Below, in pieces: positions 11,335-17,607 of a stretch of DNA of 21,249 nucleotides. The position numbers were made by a program, and so were the translations under genes. The stretch covers positions 1 to 21,249 of the IMG/VR virus record IMGVR_UViG_3300009168_000586; one strand, 5' to 3'. The DNA is from a virus. Numbering within the stretch: position 1 is the first letter of the stretch; each line of letters begins with the position of its first letter. The notes under the pieces were generated by a model. That model did not search any database and was not told the origin of the DNA. It saw only the letters and a program-made list of their open reading frames with translations.

Positions 11335-14300
11335 TTATACGTTCATCACCGTCAGCGGTTCCATCAGGGAACCCTGCTGCGCATTGCGATTCACGCCACT
11401 CCGGGTTGCTGCCTCGTTCGCCTGCGCGACCGCTCCAGGATTGCTGCCGATGATCTCTACGACCTGTCCAGCGAGCAGGTTATTTGCGGCTCGTGGATCC
11501 AGTTGAATGTAGGTGGCCGATTGCGACCATTGCGCGGTGGTGACTCCGGTATACGGACTGGTCACAAGCGACCCACCCGAGTACACAGGCTGTTGCTGCA
11601 GCCCTGCGGCGGATTGCTGGAAGGTCACGCCATACATCGGCCGCGGTAGACCGTTGGCGCTCATCCCGGTCGACATCGCATAGAGCCGGACGATTTCCAT
11701 CACGGCCGGCGAACGCACTGCGACATCGATATTGCCGCCGTACTGAGTCTTTGCCGTCTCCGCGATCGAGGCGAGCAACTTGCGGTCGGAAACAGTGATG
11801 CCGTAGACCTGCTTGATCTTCTCGCCGACCTTGTCCACGGCCGACTTCTTCAGCGCCATGACGAGGCCCACGCCCAAGCCAACGGCCGCGCCGATGGCTG
11901 CGCCGATAGGGCCGCCGATCGCGCCGATCTGCGCTCCCAACATGAAGCCAGCGAGCGCTCCACCACCAGTGGCCAGAGCGGTTCCCAGAACCGGATGATT
12001 CGGCGCCATCTTCGCGCCGGCGAGCAGCGCCATCCCTCCCGCCATTCCCCCGGCAGGGGAGGAAGCGAACCCCGCAAGGCCACCTCCAATTCCGCCAATC
12101 CCGGCAGCGGTGGTGGCCGTGCCTGAACCCATGGCGATCGAGCCGCTGTTGAAGAAGAAGGGGTGCGTTGCAGCCCATGTCGACAGACCCGACTGCCACT
12201 TATACGACTGCGGTGCCAGAATCCCCGTTCCGGGAAGGTAGGGTGAGCCACCCCAGACCGGAACCCCTCGGCCCTTTAGCCCGCTGAACAGCGACCTGGA
12301 ACCCATTGCGTTCTGCAGCAATCCGCCAAAGAAGCCACTGCCACCACCACCACCAGCACTCCTTGCCATGGCCGGAGCGGCGATGCTGTTCACTCCGGAC
12401 ATCAGGTCCATTCCGCCCGGTAATCCCATCGGAACTTCGGCCGTGCGGCTGGCGCTCACACCGGATGCTCCGGAGCCGACAGTCACCGCTTCGACGATCT
12501 TGCCTACCGTTCCACCGCCGATCACGCTCTGGCCGGCCGCCTGGATCTGCATCTGCGCGGCTGTGATCTGCAGATTCGCCGCAGTGAGGTTGAGCCTGGC
12601 GTTGCGGTCGCCAAATACCGGCTGCGCCCCCAAGCCAAGCGATTGCAGGAAGCGGCCAAAGCCAGTCTTTGAGCGCATCCCCGGCTCCAGGCTGACGCGC
12701 TCGCCAGTGAGGAGTTGGGTAAAGCTGGCGGCAATCCGGCTGGTGACGATGTCTTTCATGGCCGTCAGGAAGATCGTCTTGATGGAATTACCGAGCGCCT
12801 GGAAGAGCGAGGTACTCCGGTCGAGCAACGCATCGAAGATGCGCTCGGCTTGACTCTTGAACTGGTCGAAGATCCGCTGGTACTCGGCGAGGATCAGCTG
12901 GTTCGTCTGCTGAACCGCCTGGAGCCGAAGTTTCTGAATCTCGATATCGGCGTCATTGGCGAGTCTGACCCGCTGTTGTTCGTACTTCCCGCCTGCCACA
13001 ACCGCAGCTTCATAGGCTTCCTCTTCCGTGATGATCTGTCGCTGCTTCAGTGAATTGATGTCTCGAATTGCCTTGTCGTACTCATCGTCGTAAAGGTCCA
13101 GCCGGTGGTCGTGAACCTTGTTGACGGCATCGATCTGGATCTGTGCCAACTGGTGTTGCCGTGCAATCTGCTGATCGGCAGTCTGGGCGGGTATCGCTTC
13201 TAAGGCCGTCGAACGCAGATCGGCCCGCGCCTGCGCCAGCTCAATTTCGTCCTCCAGCACCTTGCGCGTGGTTTCATGTTCCAGTTCGAAGATGGATTTC
13301 TGGAATTCCAGGCGCTCGCGATACTTGGCTGCGGCGATCTCGCGTTCCTTATCCATCATGGCGACGTGCTCTTTGAACGCTTCGCCCTGCGCGACACTCA
13401 GTTCAATTCCAAAGGCTTTAGCCGCCAGCGCCATGGCCTTCGGAACGCCCTTGAATTTCCGGAAGTGTTCAGCGTATTTCTGCCACGTCTCGTTGAGGAA
13501 GTCGCCTTCCTTCTTGAGTTCTTCGGCGCGAGCATGTTCCAGCAACTGCTGCGCCTGTTCAATGAGAGTGGCGATTCGCTTGATTTCTTGTTCGGACTTT
13601 TGCTTCGGCGGATCCTTTAATTCCAGGCCCTTGCGTAAGTTCTTGGTTTTTTCCGCTTCCTTGTTAGCCTTACTCCACCATTCGTAGGCGAGAATGCCGA
13701 GCGTGATCAGCCCCCCGATCACGGCACCCCACGCACCTGCACCGCCCCTGGAGATGAAGCTGATCAGGGTAATGATCAGCGGACCCAAATCCTTCAGAAC
13801 GGTCCACATCTTTCCAAGGGCAAGTGCGCCAGCCGTCCACGCAGCAGCCAGCGCAAGAAAGGCTGCAGCGGCAAGAGAGGCATCGATGATCAGTTTTCGA
13901 AGTTCTGCCGGCAGTGCTTGCCAGCCTGTGGAGAGCGTATTGAGGAACTGACCGAATACTCGAATCCAACCTTCCAACTCCTTCGAGATATCCTTCATGA
14001 CCGGCAGCAGATTGATCCTGATGGTGTCGGCTAAATTATCAAGCTGGTCCTGGATGCCGGGAAGCACTGTTGGCTTCTTCGACATCGCCACATTCAGGTC
14101 GCTAATCAACTTGACTCCGGTGATGCCCATCTTTTCGAGCTTTTCCGGATCCGACGTTTTGTATAGCTCCTGTAACAGCGGCCGCACGTTCTTCAACTGG
14201 GTGATGATCGGCCGCAGATCCTGCATGACGATCTTTCCGCTTGCCGCCATCTGCGCGAACTGCTCGGAAACCAGTCCAAACACTTCGGCACCGCCGCCGC

Positions 14301-15111
14301 CCAATGCCACGAGATTGGCGAGATTAGCGGTGAAGTCGAGAATGAATTCGTCATCCGAGATGACGGCCTTCAGGCTGGCGAATGTCGAAATCGCTTCCTG
14401 CAGGCCAATGCCGGGTTCTCTGGCAATTTCGGCGAGACGGGTAAACCATTGAGTCGCCTGTTGCTCGGAATCCGCAAGGGCGCTCAAGGTACGCTGCAAC
14501 CGTTCGACGCCGGCAGCAGTCTCCAGCATGTTCTTGACTGCATATGCAGGAGCCGCCAAGGCACTGGCAGTAAATAGAGTGGTGCCAACCCCACCACCGC
14601 CACCGCCGCCGCGGCTGGCCTGTTTTGCCGTTTGTGCGTTCTGCACCAACTGCTGGTTCTGCTGTTTCAGCGCTTGAGTGGCACGATTTGCCGCGACCGA
14701 CAGAGTGCGCATCGTCTGCTGAATGTCTTTGGCAAACTGCCGGGACGCCGCAGCACTGGATCGCAGGTTGAAATTGATGCGTTGGATCGTGTTTGCCGCG
14801 GCATCGAATCCTCGGGCAGCCGCTCGCGCATTCGTGCCGGCTGTCTGAAAATCTGTTGCGGCCTTCGCTGACGTAGTAGAGAGTTTTCTGATATCGCGCT
14901 CCAGAGCGGAGGCGCTTTTGGCCGATGCGTTTATGGCGGTGGCTTGCTTCTGAAAGGCCGAAGTGATGGAGCGGACGCCGGATTCGATCTGCTTGCTCGA
15001 AGTCGCCATGGCCGTTCCGGTGGCGGCAATCTTCTTATTAACAGCGTCAATCTGCTTCTGCGCCTTCGAAGTATCGAAGTCGATTTCAACCGATATGACG
15101 TTGTCAGCCAT
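11335..15111 (-). CDS. Tape measure protein (lambda gpH-like)
   Basis: I choose ATG 15111 (MADNVISVEIDFDTSK), which overlaps the chaperone stop by eight bases; the frame is open further upstream, but that part lies inside the chaperone gene. The protein has 1258 aa. Residues 1-160 are Ala/Gln/Ser-rich helix, then a run of seven glycines. Residues 200-380 match the N-terminal tape-measure domain (ISTFASLKAVISDDEFILDF, then MQDLRPIITQLKNVRPLLQE). Hydrophobic helices lie at about 405-430 and 440-477, long charged coiled coil at about 480-780, and a Gly/Ala-rich hydrophobic stretch at about 1000-1087 (MLGAQIGAIGGPIGAAIGAA). This is the usual build of proteins that set tail length and then help DNA cross the host membrane. 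At about 1.5 angstrom per residue it predicts a tail near 190 nm. Confidence 0.92.
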   Translation of the reverse strand: MADNVISVEIDFDTSKAQKQIDAVNKKIAATGTAMATSSKQIESGVRSITSAFQKQATAINASAKSASALERDIRKLSTTSAKAATDFQTAGTNARAAARGFDAAANTIQRINFNLRSSAAASRQFAKDIQQTMRTLSVAANRATQALKQQNQQLVQNAQTAKQASRGGGGGGGVGTTLFTASALAAPAYAVKNMLETAAGVERLQRTLSALADSEQQATQWFTRLAEIAREPGIGLQEAISTFASLKAVISDDEFILDFTANLANLVALGGGGAEVFGLVSEQFAQMAASGKIVMQDLRPIITQLKNVRPLLQELYKTSDPEKLEKMGITGVKLISDLNVAMSKKPTVLPGIQDQLDNLADTIRINLLPVMKDISKELEGWIRVFGQFLNTLSTGWQALPAELRKLIIDASLAAAAFLALAAAWTAGALALGKMWTVLKDLGPLIITLISFISRGGAGAWGAVIGGLITLGILAYEWWSKANKEAEKTKNLRKGLELKDPPKQKSEQEIKRIATLIEQAQQLLEHARAEELKKEGDFLNETWQKYAEHFRKFKGVPKAMALAAKAFGIELSVAQGEAFKEHVAMMDKEREIAAAKYRERLEFQKSIFELEHETTRKVLEDEIELAQARADLRSTALEAIPAQTADQQIARQHQLAQIQIDAVNKVHDHRLDLYDDEYDKAIRDINSLKQRQIITEEEAYEAAVVAGGKYEQQRVRLANDADIEIQKLRLQAVQQTNQLILAEYQRIFDQFKSQAERIFDALLDRSTSLFQALGNSIKTIFLTAMKDIVTSRIAASFTQLLTGERVSLEPGMRSKTGFGRFLQSLGLGAQPVFGDRNARLNLTAANLQITAAQMQIQAAGQSVIGGGTVGKIVEAVTVGSGASGVSASRTAEVPMGLPGGMDLMSGVNSIAAPAMARSAGGGGGSGFFGGLLQNAMGSRSLFSGLKGRGVPVWGGSPYLPGTGILAPQSYKWQSGLSTWAATHPFFFNSGSIAMGSGTATTAAGIGGIGGGLAGFASSPAGGMAGGMALLAGAKMAPNHPVLGTALATGGGALAGFMLGAQIGAIGGPIGAAIGAAVGLGVGLVMALKKSAVDKVGEKIKQVYGITVSDRKLLASIAETAKTQYGGNIDVAVRSPAVMEIVRLYAMSTGMSANGLPRPMYGVTFQQSAAGLQQQPVYSGGSLVTSPYTGVTTAQWSQSATYIQLDPRAANNLLAGQVVEIIGSNPGAVAQANEAATRSGVNRNAQQGSLMEPLTVMNV

Positions 15112-16032
15112 TAGATTTTCGCTGTTCTGATTGCTTCTTGATCTGCTCTTCCTGGTATTTGTCCTTCTCCTCCGCAAGAATTCGCAGCAGAGAGAACTCG
15201 TAGTAATTGGGCGTCTGGGAAATCCCCATCTTCAGCGCAAAATCGATTTCGATCGTTCGCTGTACCGCTTGTCCAAGCGGCTCGTCCATCCAATGCATGA
15301 GGATCACGTCGGGACAATCGAGGCAGGGAAGCCCGTCGTCGGTGTCCGGACAGGACGCGGCGCCCGGACAAATATCCGGACGCCGTAGCAGGCGGGAAAA
15401 GATGAATCGAGCCGTAGGGACTTCCGGCCACTCCCCCCACGGCTCTACTGATTTCCCTGTGCGGCTTCATCTTCGATCAGTTGAAGGGCAGCGCGAATCA
15501 CTTCATCCTTGTGAATCGCGGGTACTCCATTGGCGTAGTTTTCGGTGGAGATCTGACAGGCGTCATAGAGCTTCACCGATGGATGAATGGATTGCTTGAA
15601 CTGCTGCTGTCCGAAGCGCAAATTGATCACGTCGGTCGACCGTTTCAGGCTCCCCGCTTCTTCGGTCGTGGGGATCCGCACCCGATGCGTTGTGATCTGA
15701 TCCGGGAAGACGCGCAGATCGACAGTTACCTTGTCGGCATCCACCTGGCCACCCGCTACTTCCCGCAAAGCGATGCGTTCAACAACTTCGGTCGCTTCCG
15801 CTGCAACCAGATCGGCCGATCCAGGCTCGCGGATTTGCTCATAAAGACGCAGATCCGCTTCCCCGGTATCAATGTCGAGCTTGGTCTGGCCGCGGGCGTG
15901 GGAGGTGCTAATGACTTTGCGCCGGCGAAACCAATCAGCCCACTGCTCGTCATCAGGAAACTTAACGGTGATCGTTTCCGGGCCGTGGCTCCGGCGAATT
16001 GCGGTCTTTACCTTCATTTGCGAATCGAACAT
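15104..16032 (-). CDS. Tail assembly chaperone, -1 frameshift product (lambda gpGT-like)
   Basis: Reading starts at ATG 16032. It slips back one base at GGGAAAT (15451-15457) and continues in the -1 frame, from the TCA codon at 15451-15449 to TGA at 15104. This gives about 194 + 115 = 309 aa. The downstream frame has no stop between the slip site and 15104, although its only good-looking start (GTG 15307) lies far inside, so frameshifting explains the whole open stretch. The added part begins SVEPWGEWPEVPTARF. It carries cysteines in a C-x5-C-x8-C-x2-C pattern and ends in a charged helix (EEKDKYQEEQIKKQSEQRKS). In lambda, gpG coats the tape measure and the T part recruits tube subunits; here the T part ends exactly at the tape-measure start. 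Confidence 0.85.
15409..15445 (-). promoter_or_regulatory. Frameshift-stimulating stem-loop downstream of the slip site
   Basis: On the transcribed strand the 5' arm GAGCCGTGGGG (15445-15435) pairs with the 3' arm CCCTACGGCTC (15419-15409). This gives seven Watson-Crick pairs, one G-U, then three G-C, about 11 bp with a 15-base loop. The stem starts 5 bases after the heptamer, within the 5-9 base spacing typical of -1 frameshift stimulators. The loop is purine-rich, so a pseudoknot is possible but I did not find a clear partner. Confidence 0.75.
15445..16032 (-). CDS. Tail assembly chaperone, unshifted product (lambda gpG-like)
   Basis: This protein has 195 aa. ATG 16032 has an AAGGG site about 9 bases upstream, and TAG is at 15447-15445. 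It is a soluble, charged protein with no membrane segment (VKFPDDEQWADWFRRRKVIS at residues 24-43). The position between tube and tape-measure genes is diagnostic for the tail-assembly chaperone pair of siphoviruses. Sequence identity with lambda gpG is not obvious by eye; the call rests on gene order and on the frameshift signal at its end. It is somewhat longer than lambda gpG (140 aa). Confidence 0.82.
   Translation of the reverse strand: MFDSQMKVKTAIRRSHGPETITVKFPDDEQWADWFRRRKVISTSHARGQTKLDIDTGEADLRLYEQIREPGSADLVAAEATEVVERIALREVAGGQVDADKVTVDLRVFPDQITTHRVRIPTTEEAGSLKRSTDVINLRFGQQQFKQSIHPSVKLYDACQISTENYANGVPAIHKDEVIRAALQLIEDEAAQGNQ
15451..15457 (-). promoter_or_regulatory. Programmed -1 frameshift slippery heptamer GGGAAAT
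   Basis: In the frame of the first chaperone the codons read CA[G GGA AAT] CAG TAG, so the heptamer has the required X-XXY-YYZ phasing. Lambda uses GGGAAAG at the same place in G/GT. The heptamer lies three bases before the stop codon, as usual for this class of signal, and the -1 frame is open through to the tape-measure start. Confidence 0.85.
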
Positions 16033-16064: not shown

Positions 16065-17159
16065 TTAGGCGGCCTTCTTGACTGATTCTGGAAGCGCTTC
16101 TTCCAGCGCTGGACCGACAGACCCTGTGGTCGTAGTGGCTTCAAACTGCACGTAAGGCTGGCCCGATGCCTTGAGAATGCGCATCGAGCAGTTGACCGTC
16201 ACCAGCCCGTCCTGCTCGCCATTGACGGTGGCGGACATGCGGGTGCGCGGAAACTTCATGACAAAGCCGTGCTTCTCCGGGCCTGCGCCGATAGTGGCTC
16301 CGGTCACGGTGATCTGCGAATCGGTCACTTCGCTCTGAGTCAGTAGCGACTGAAGCTCAAGCGATCCTTTCGCGGCTCGGGCAACGAAGGTGACTTCGCA
16401 GCTGCGGTCGCCCATCTCCATTCGCCCTCGAAGGGCAAAGCCGTGAGCATCAACGCCCGAACCTGGATAGACGCCTGTATCCAGGCGCACGTTGTTGTTC
16501 CACACCACCTGGCAGGAAATGAATTGCTTGGTGGCGACATAGTCGATGCCCTGCAACTTGAGCGTGGCCGATGCTGCGTTCAGCGAATGTTCCGGCGTGA
16601 GTGCCGGAATGATGGAGGTAGTCGGCGCTTCGATCTTGCCGGATCCGACCATTTCCGCGCTGAAGCGGCAATTGGCACGGCCGGGACCGCTCTCCATGTT
16701 GAACGTGAAGGAATTGACCACCATCCCGATCAACGCCTGGTCGACAACGGCATCCGGTGGTTCGCGGATCTTCTCCACCATGGTGAACGGCGGGAGGTCC
16801 AGACAATCCACGGCTGGATCCTGCGGCGTGCAGACGTATTTGAATCCTGTCCCCGCTGCCGTCTCTACGACACTTCCCAGTCCGAAGGCGAAACACCACG
16901 CGGCAAACTCGCTGCAGGCGTATTTCTCCAGGGTTCCCGCGACGTTCATCACAGTGGGAAAGACTTCAGTCGGAAACTCGTCGCCCTTCCCAATGTCCTG
17001 AGCGTTGTCTTCCGTCTGTGGATCAATGACAGTTAATGCGGCATTTACCTTTGTCAGCGACCAAAGGTCCGCATCGAGATTCTTGGTATGAAGATCGGTC
17101 TGCGGCTTTTTGCCGAATGCGATCTTCGTTTCACGTATATTAGCTGCGCACGTTGGCAT
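16065..17159 (-). CDS. Major tail tube protein (lambda gpV position)
   Basis: I choose ATG 17159 (MPTCAANIRETKIAFG), giving 364 aa. An ideal AAGGAG site lies 7 bases before it. An open extension up to 17312 would run through the preceding gene in another frame and lacks such a site. The protein is beta-rich; MVVNSFTFNMESGPGRANCR, followed by FSAEMVGSGK, is typical of tube subunits, where an inner strand pair describes the sampled domain. It ends in a Thr/Ala-rich tail (EATTTTGSVGPALEEALPES). It is longer than lambda gpV (246 aa), and extra domains on tube proteins are common. It starts 20 bases inside the terminator gene. It should polymerise as hexamers around the tape measure. Confidence 0.8.
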   Translation of the reverse strand: MPTCAANIRETKIAFGKKPQTDLHTKNLDADLWSLTKVNAALTVIDPQTEDNAQDIGKGDEFPTEVFPTVMNVAGTLEKYACSEFAAWCFAFGLGSVVETAAGTGFKYVCTPQDPAVDCLDLPPFTMVEKIREPPDAVVDQALIGMVVNSFTFNMESGPGRANCRFSAEMVGSGKIEAPTTSIIPALTPEHSLNAASATLKLQGIDYVATKQFISCQVVWNNNVRLDTGVYPGSGVDAHGFALRGRMEMGDRSCEVTFVARAAKGSLELQSLLTQSEVTDSQITVTGATIGAGPEKHGFVMKFPRTRMSATVNGEQDGLVTVNCSMRILKASGQPYVQFEATTTTGSVGPALEEALPESVKKAA

Positions 17160-17607
17160 CTGAAGTCTCCTTGATGAGAAGTTCAACCACGACGTAATCG
17201 ATTCCTTCCTCGTTAGTCGTGATCCGTGAAATGAGATTGACGACGGCAGGCAGCACGTCATCTTGAACTGGACAGTAACGCCATGGCAGGTCCGCATCCG
17301 GCCGCTTGCCATTGATCACCACCGTGGCGAGGGCGAGATCCGACTTACCCTTCATCGCCTTCACAACAACTACGAAGCGGTGTTGCCACGCTTCCATCTC
17401 GCCTTCGGTGATATTGGTGTCCTGCCATGCGATTAAAATTTCTCCGGATGCCATGGCGTACACGGCATTGGTGAATGAATTGGCGGTCGGATTGAGATCG
17501 ATGTAGGCGCGAATGGCTTCCGCCTTGCCGTCCAGCTCCTCCACCAGCAGCGGGATATCCCGCAGCGTGTCCTGGATCGCATACGACAGTGTGATGAGAT
17601 CGACCAT
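17140..17607 (-). CDS. Tail terminator / minor tail protein (lambda gpU position)
   Basis: This protein has 155 aa; ATG 17607 immediately follows the TAA of the preceding gene with no gap and no clear ribosome site, so it is probably coupled. The pattern is an N-terminal helix (LSYAIQDTLRDIPLLVEELD), a strand region (SGEILIAWQDTNITEGEMEA), a core with RFVVVVKA, and a C-terminal strand (YVVVELLIKET). This matches the alpha-beta fold of terminator proteins that cap the growing tube. The position between completion and tube genes supports the call. Identity to lambda gpU is not visible by eye. Confidence 0.7.
   Translation of the reverse strand: MVDLITLSYAIQDTLRDIPLLVEELDGKAEAIRAYIDLNPTANSFTNAVYAMASGEILIAWQDTNITEGEMEAWQHRFVVVVKAMKGKSDLALATVVINGKRPDADLPWRYCPVQDDVLPAVVNLISRITTNEEGIDYVVVELLIKETSDANVRS
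17167..17172 (-). promoter_or_regulatory. Ribosome binding site AAGGAG of the tail tube gene
   Basis: AAGGAG sits 7 bases before the ATG at 17159, inside the end of the terminator gene. It fixes the tube start against the longer open frame and suggests strong initiation, as expected for an abundant tail subunit. Confidence 0.75.

Follow-up and report, generated by a model that had tools for sequence, protein, structure and literature searches.

Gene content of the window and the probable frameshift signal

The window analysed here is the whole of the IMG/VR virus record IMGVR_UViG_3300009168_000586 (21,249 bases, positions 1 to 21,249), a metagenomic contig of a soil phage. Its siphophage structural genes are located on the minus strand and include a Phage_cap_E major capsid gene, head-tail genes, a tail tube gene, a candidate frameshift pair, a tape measure gene and a gene for a J-like tail protein. 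The tail tube gene (16065..17201, minus strand; PF18906, 2e-8; PHROG 290) is upstream of the pair and the tape measure gene (11335..15111, minus strand; PF20155, 5e-16; PHROG 167) is downstream of it, which is the placement that the G/GT type requires; the same order was found in the related locus L002. At 5837-2865 on the same strand, the window encodes a 990-aa protein with repeated segments resembling F5/8 type C (discoidin-like) domains by eye, and this protein with its putative discoidin-like repeats is possibly involved in receptor binding.

The upstream member of the pair is a 0-frame ORF of 195 aa (15445..16032, minus strand), a putative G-like tail assembly chaperone with homologues at 65 other junctions and an AlphaFold2 model of pLDDT 95.7. 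It ends in ...QGNQ, encoded by CAG GGA AAT CAG TAG. An earlier note on this DNA had placed a correctly phased heptamer GGGAAAT three bases before the stop, and we confirmed it at 15457-15451 on the minus strand (15451..15457): read as G_GGA_AAT in the 0 frame, it is phased for a tandem -1 slip to GGG AAA T, with one sense codon between it and the TAG (15445..15447, minus strand). Only 19 nt separate the opening of the -1 frame from this stop, which confines the shift to the last few codons. As the earlier note had also stated, the frame remains open from the slip site to the tape measure start, where its TGA (15106-15104) overlaps the ATG at 15111 (15111-15104, ATGGCTGA). This ATG/TGA overlap suggests that the tape measure gene is translationally coupled to the frameshifted frame. 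GGGAAAT is the sole canonical phased heptamer in the short overlap. Phased X_XXY_YYZ heptamers, GGGAAAT included, occupy 7 of the 6216 codon positions in the window genes; given about five permitted positions in the overlap, this frequency corresponds to a chance occurrence of ~0.5%.

The heptamer is followed by the 5-nt spacer CAGTA, composed of CAG and the first two stop bases (15446..15450, minus strand), and by a probable stimulatory stem. Its 5' arm, GAGCCGTGGGGG (15434..15445, minus strand), and 3' arm, TCCCTACGGCTC (15409..15420, minus strand), are separated by a 13-nt loop. The spacer and a stem of about 11 bp (15445-15435 / 15419-15409) had been described previously; the spacer stands, and the stem extends to 12 bp through a terminal G-U pair (15434/15420), with a second G-U pair inside the helix and a helix energy of about -21 kcal/mol. 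The window therefore has a complete canonical -1 signal, consisting of an X_XXY_YYZ heptamer, a 5-nt spacer and a structure; the spacer range for such signals is 5-9 nt (PMC8211752). Rfam gave no match in the window, and no mention of GGGAAAT as a frameshift site was found in our literature search.

The predicted -1-frame extension, a T-like domain of 115 aa plus stop (15104..15451, minus strand), would be joined to N194; the resulting fusion would measure about 309 aa and have the junction QG-N/K-SVEPWGEW. A gene call based on start codons begins at GTG15307 and reports only the fragment 15104..15307 (minus strand). The previous claim that such a call misses 48 residues proved correct, and all four invariant cysteines of the extension are among the lost residues.

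Relatives of the junction

Direct searches with the two proteins of the pair gave no relatives. The route to the relatives led from the capsid protein to L002 and then through an alignment of the tail tube protein, which yielded 45 viral loci and 3 loci in Acidobacteriota/Bryobacteraceae genomes. A second scan and genome searches added more, and 396 Acidobacteriota genomes contributed one genome beyond those already known. The capsid-reached loci L003-L006 were left out, having no match to the pair (the tail region of L003 was inspected). After removal of repeats, the final set contains 66 distinct junctions, namely the window and 65 others, 61 of them from viral contigs and 4 from Acidobacteriota genomes. 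The Acidobacteriota genome G001 (contigs C18 and C30) has two tail tube genes of the family, L140 and L142, which are probably two prophages. Among annotated phages, neither the L002 tube protein nor the L059 extension had a match, and no cultured relative was found at these genes. The extension follows directly on the upstream stop and is read in the -1 frame at all 66 junctions, the window included.

Slip-site classes

Of the 66 junctions, 65 carry a slip site, which is either a tandem heptamer or of the T_TTY kind and lies at the stop or one codon earlier. A tandem heptamer ending at the stop is present in 31 junctions and is mostly AAATTTT (AAATTTY type), as in L017, where TAG follows it. 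Another 21 junctions have T_TTT immediately before the stop and no tandem re-pairing (L002, L007, L009, L010, L011, L019, L020, L021, L023, L027, L029, L032, L036, L042, L043, L045, L046, L048, L051, L072 and L122); L002, for example, reads ATT TTT TAG. In eleven junctions, a single codon separates the tandem heptamer from the stop (GGGAAAT in the window, elsewhere GGGAAAC, CCCAAAC or AAAAAAC), and two, L108 and L125, have both heptamers overlapping in GGGAAATTTT, which includes an identical GGGAAAT and in L108 is followed by TAG. The only junction with no recognised slip site is L050 (CCG GAA TTT TAG, stop at about 7681), and its -1 extension is kept.

On the tree, these five slip-site classes need a minimum of 17 changes. 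The sister of the window, L121 (support 100/98), has GGGAAAC (G_GGA_AAC) at the same position, reading GGA AAC GAG TAA; the two share the candidate G_GGA_AAY site despite long branches, and they differ in the last residue. Where the slip-site codon ahead of Phe is AAT, the base before it is A in 29 of 29 cases, compared with 6 of 88 for AAT codons at other places in these genes, which indicates that the XXX of AAATTTY is selected. The earlier note had counted loss of the stem and heptamer with retention of the downstream frame against a frameshift. In most relatives the heptamer is literally lost and the frame kept, but nearly all of them have a replacement slip site. Judged by the junction sequences, several slip sites, GGGAAAT among them, can stand in for one another, and the GGGAAATTTT composite is a plausible intermediate between the window type and the AAATTTT type.

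In the 21 relatives with T_TTT at the stop, only tRNA-Phe can re-pair, and a -1 slip there possibly competes with termination. For about a third of the relatives, frameshifting apparently relies on one slipping Phe-tRNA next to the stop. Neither such a large class of stop-adjacent Phe slips nor the repeated replacement of slip sites within one family via composite intermediates was described in the literature searched.

The stem downstream of the slip site

In the window, a helix as strong as the observed one at a spacing of 3-8 nt was obtained in only 0.15% of 2000 synonymous recodings of the -1 peptide (~0.0015); this test was restricted to correctly spaced helices after the whole-region MFE result had been seen. 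The MFE of the whole 60 nt does not differ significantly from that of synonymous recodings (z -1.2 in the window), and the claim is therefore limited to the specific helix and does not extend to a general GC-rich foldedness. A dinucleotide shuffle provides a weaker test of the window stem (z -1.9, 7/200).

Across the family, simple helices start mostly 3-6 nt past the slip site (39 junctions). The earlier note had presented the strong stem as an addition relative to lambda; the stem is real, yet it is not peculiar to the window, since most of the family has a stem at similar spacing. The sister L121 has only a longer interrupted helix and no simple uninterrupted one at the expected spacing. 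Shine-Dalgarno-like words 7-24 nt ahead of the slip site show a mild excess, with 22 of 66 junctions compared to 12.9 +- 3.1 elsewhere in the gene.

A stem of this kind might arise as a by-product of the Gly-rich and Pro-rich peptide (GGxWPExPSP), in which case the frameshift would be real and the stem would not be its stimulator. Most T-type relatives are indeed no more folded than their synonymous recodings (mean z -0.35), and the helix permutation was not significant for the T_TTT-only (Phe-only) class alone (46/500). The whole-region MFE was uninformative for most relatives in this comparison. The window helix, however, is far stronger than recoding yields, and permutation of synonymous codons within columns weakens the helix across the family from the observed -11.2 to -8.7 +- 0.5 kcal/mol (0/500, a count that, as in the other permutation tests, ignores relatedness and is not a strict probability). 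Permutation has its largest effect on junctions whose heptamer lies a codon earlier (-12.3 vs -6.0, 0/500); six of the eleven members of this class are close kin.

Synonymous third positions also covary. Pairing was seen in 96 of the 120 cases of facing third positions, compared with 81 +- 3.3 expected (0/2000 with GC3 strata), and the covariation score of 0.153 exceeds both the shuffled value of 0.073 and the more cautious slid control, which is at most 0.109. For example, column pair 9/27 of alignment A5 swaps between G-U, C-G and G-C. Finally, in the earlier-heptamer class (4 of the 39 junctions), the helix starts 5-7 nt past the heptamer, which is only 2-4 nt past the start of the stop codon. 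The distance is thus kept constant from the heptamer, and the stem tracks the slip site, not the stop. Taken with the codon usage around the AAATTTY sites, these patterns support selection on both the slip site and the stem, and we regard the by-product explanation as unlikely.

Translation of the -1 frame

In alignment A7 of 32 extensions, W8, P12, C28, C34, C43 and C46 are invariant and P9, R23, L27 and P47 are nearly so, and the conserved peptide after the slip follows the pattern WPExPSPRFIF..LCP..CP..C..CP. Counted from the frame opening, or from 24 nt before the stop, the -1 frame reaches the WPE motif with no ATG, GTG or TTG in 61 of the 66 junctions. The first -1-frame start is typically found 50-60 nt past the stop, and 140 nt past it in the window. 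Changes before this first start, in pairs up to 30% different, number 1170, 1017 and 3331 at codon positions 1, 2 and 3. The conservation ahead of the first start and the third-position bias place the 48 residues dropped by the GTG call among the best conserved of the extension. The invariant cysteines are spaced C-x5-C ... C-x2-C (15451-15308, minus strand) ahead of any start in the window, and their pattern probably represents a zinc site.

The downstream frame could alternatively be a separate gene, started at GTG15307 or ATG15298 by reinitiation or coupling, with the open -1 frame ahead of these codons being due to chance. Both start codons are present, and termination-reinitiation is common in phage operons. 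This explanation is contradicted by the best-conserved portion of the extension, the WPE, RFIF and CPG motifs and all four cysteines, which precede any start in the window and largely precede the first start in most relatives, and by the substitutions before the first start, which follow the coding pattern of the -1 frame. Five relatives have a TTG or ATG near the junction, where translation might start internally. For the window, two separate genes appear very improbable, and the data support translation of a -1 frame that is entered at or near the slip site.

The slippage could also be transcriptional instead of ribosomal, and stretches of five or six T are present in some relatives. However, known transcriptional slippage sites consist of T runs >8 or A runs >7 (PMC3711429) and the slip site of the window contains no homopolymer >3 bases, which makes this mechanism extremely unlikely. 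A sequencing or assembly error that split a single fused gene, conceivable in a metagenomic contig, can be dismissed for practical purposes, since the same -1 arrangement recurs at 66 distinct junctions from many assemblies, bacterial genomes included.

Proposed mechanism and protein functions

The signal and its conservation make a programmed -1 ribosomal frameshift of the lambda G/GT type very probable in the window. Most ribosomes would terminate at the TAG and release the 195-aa upstream protein. For a minority, the 12-bp stem would impose a pause while tRNA-Gly (GGA) and tRNA-Asn (AAT) occupy G_GGA_AAT, and these ribosomes would re-pair one base back on GGG AAA, presumably by tandem two-tRNA slippage with the stem as stimulator. 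Translation would then continue for 115 residues in the -1 frame to give the fusion. By analogy with lambda, the short form may bind the tape measure protein while the fusion recruits the tail tube subunit (PMC5009743). The AAT second codon counts against this scheme, as slippage on it is expected to be poor in E. coli: A_AAA_AAG is ranked far above A_AAA_AAC (PMC5009743), from which we infer the case of T.

Neither protein of the pair matches a known chaperone family in Pfam or PHROGs. Fold searches with the model of the upstream protein gave no PDB or BFVD match at E<=0.001, and those with the model of the extension (pLDDT 90.8), compared with BFVD only, gave none at the same threshold. A fold match to the 'tape measure chaperone' of Salmonella phage Shivani (E 0.39) is insignificant and was not counted as evidence. 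The upstream protein is best described as a member of an unplaced putative chaperone family that has a confident predicted fold with no significant match. The designation of the pair as tail chaperone genes in the earlier note fits the gene position and the frameshift architecture, even though no known chaperone family or fold was matched; we infer the tail assembly chaperone role from the location between tube and tape measure and from that architecture.

Comparison with known systems

The lambda slip site is G_GGA_AAG. Lambda G/GT resembles the window in its place among the tail genes, the direction of the shift, the re-pairing on GGG AAA and the logic of two products (PMC5009743). In contrast to the AAG (Lys) of lambda, the second codon in the window is AAT (Asn), and the window differs further in that a single codon separates its heptamer from the stop, that a 12-bp stem begins 5 nt past the heptamer and that its proteins are unlike known chaperone families. 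The tail frameshift of the haloarchaeal siphovirus HCTV-1 is likewise a -1 shift of the g-t type with Asn as the second codon, and its G_GGA_AAC is the heptamer of the sister L121 (PMC5009743); its host is archaeal, and it has AAC where the window has AAT. Bacterial signals of the dnaX type (A_AAA_AAG plus stem) share the arrangement of heptamer and stem-loop (PMC3711429), whereas no clear upstream Shine-Dalgarno stimulator was seen in the window.

Single-codon Z_ZZN slips and near-heptamers such as that of T7 gene 10 are known (PMC5009743). These minimal sites resemble the T_TTT relatives, in which only the Phe codon would re-pair (PMC5009743); in the relatives, however, the Phe codon abuts the stop, and the site of the window is a tandem heptamer. 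For tail chaperones of phages, PRFect also lists several non-canonical slip motifs (PMC10885494).

Since a -1 shift among the tail genes is a widely conserved trait of long-tailed phages (PMC5009743), the window frameshift belongs to a known class, that between tail tube and tape measure, and the unusual part is the family-wide replacement of slip sites. We tentatively suggest that the frame switch has stayed constant while its slip site was repeatedly replaced via composites like GGGAAATTTT, with about a third of the family using a single-tRNA T_TTT slip while the stop codon occupies the A site (a -1 'shifty stop'). The window would then represent a lineage whose two-tRNA site lies a codon further upstream and whose stem has shifted along with it.

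In many of these genomes, the conserved part of the extension with the four cysteines would escape gene callers that rely on start codons. The 66 junctions form a deep natural series in which one frameshift is kept and slip site, spacer and stem vary, and this series allows slip-site strength and stem strength to be tested against each other in comparable contexts.
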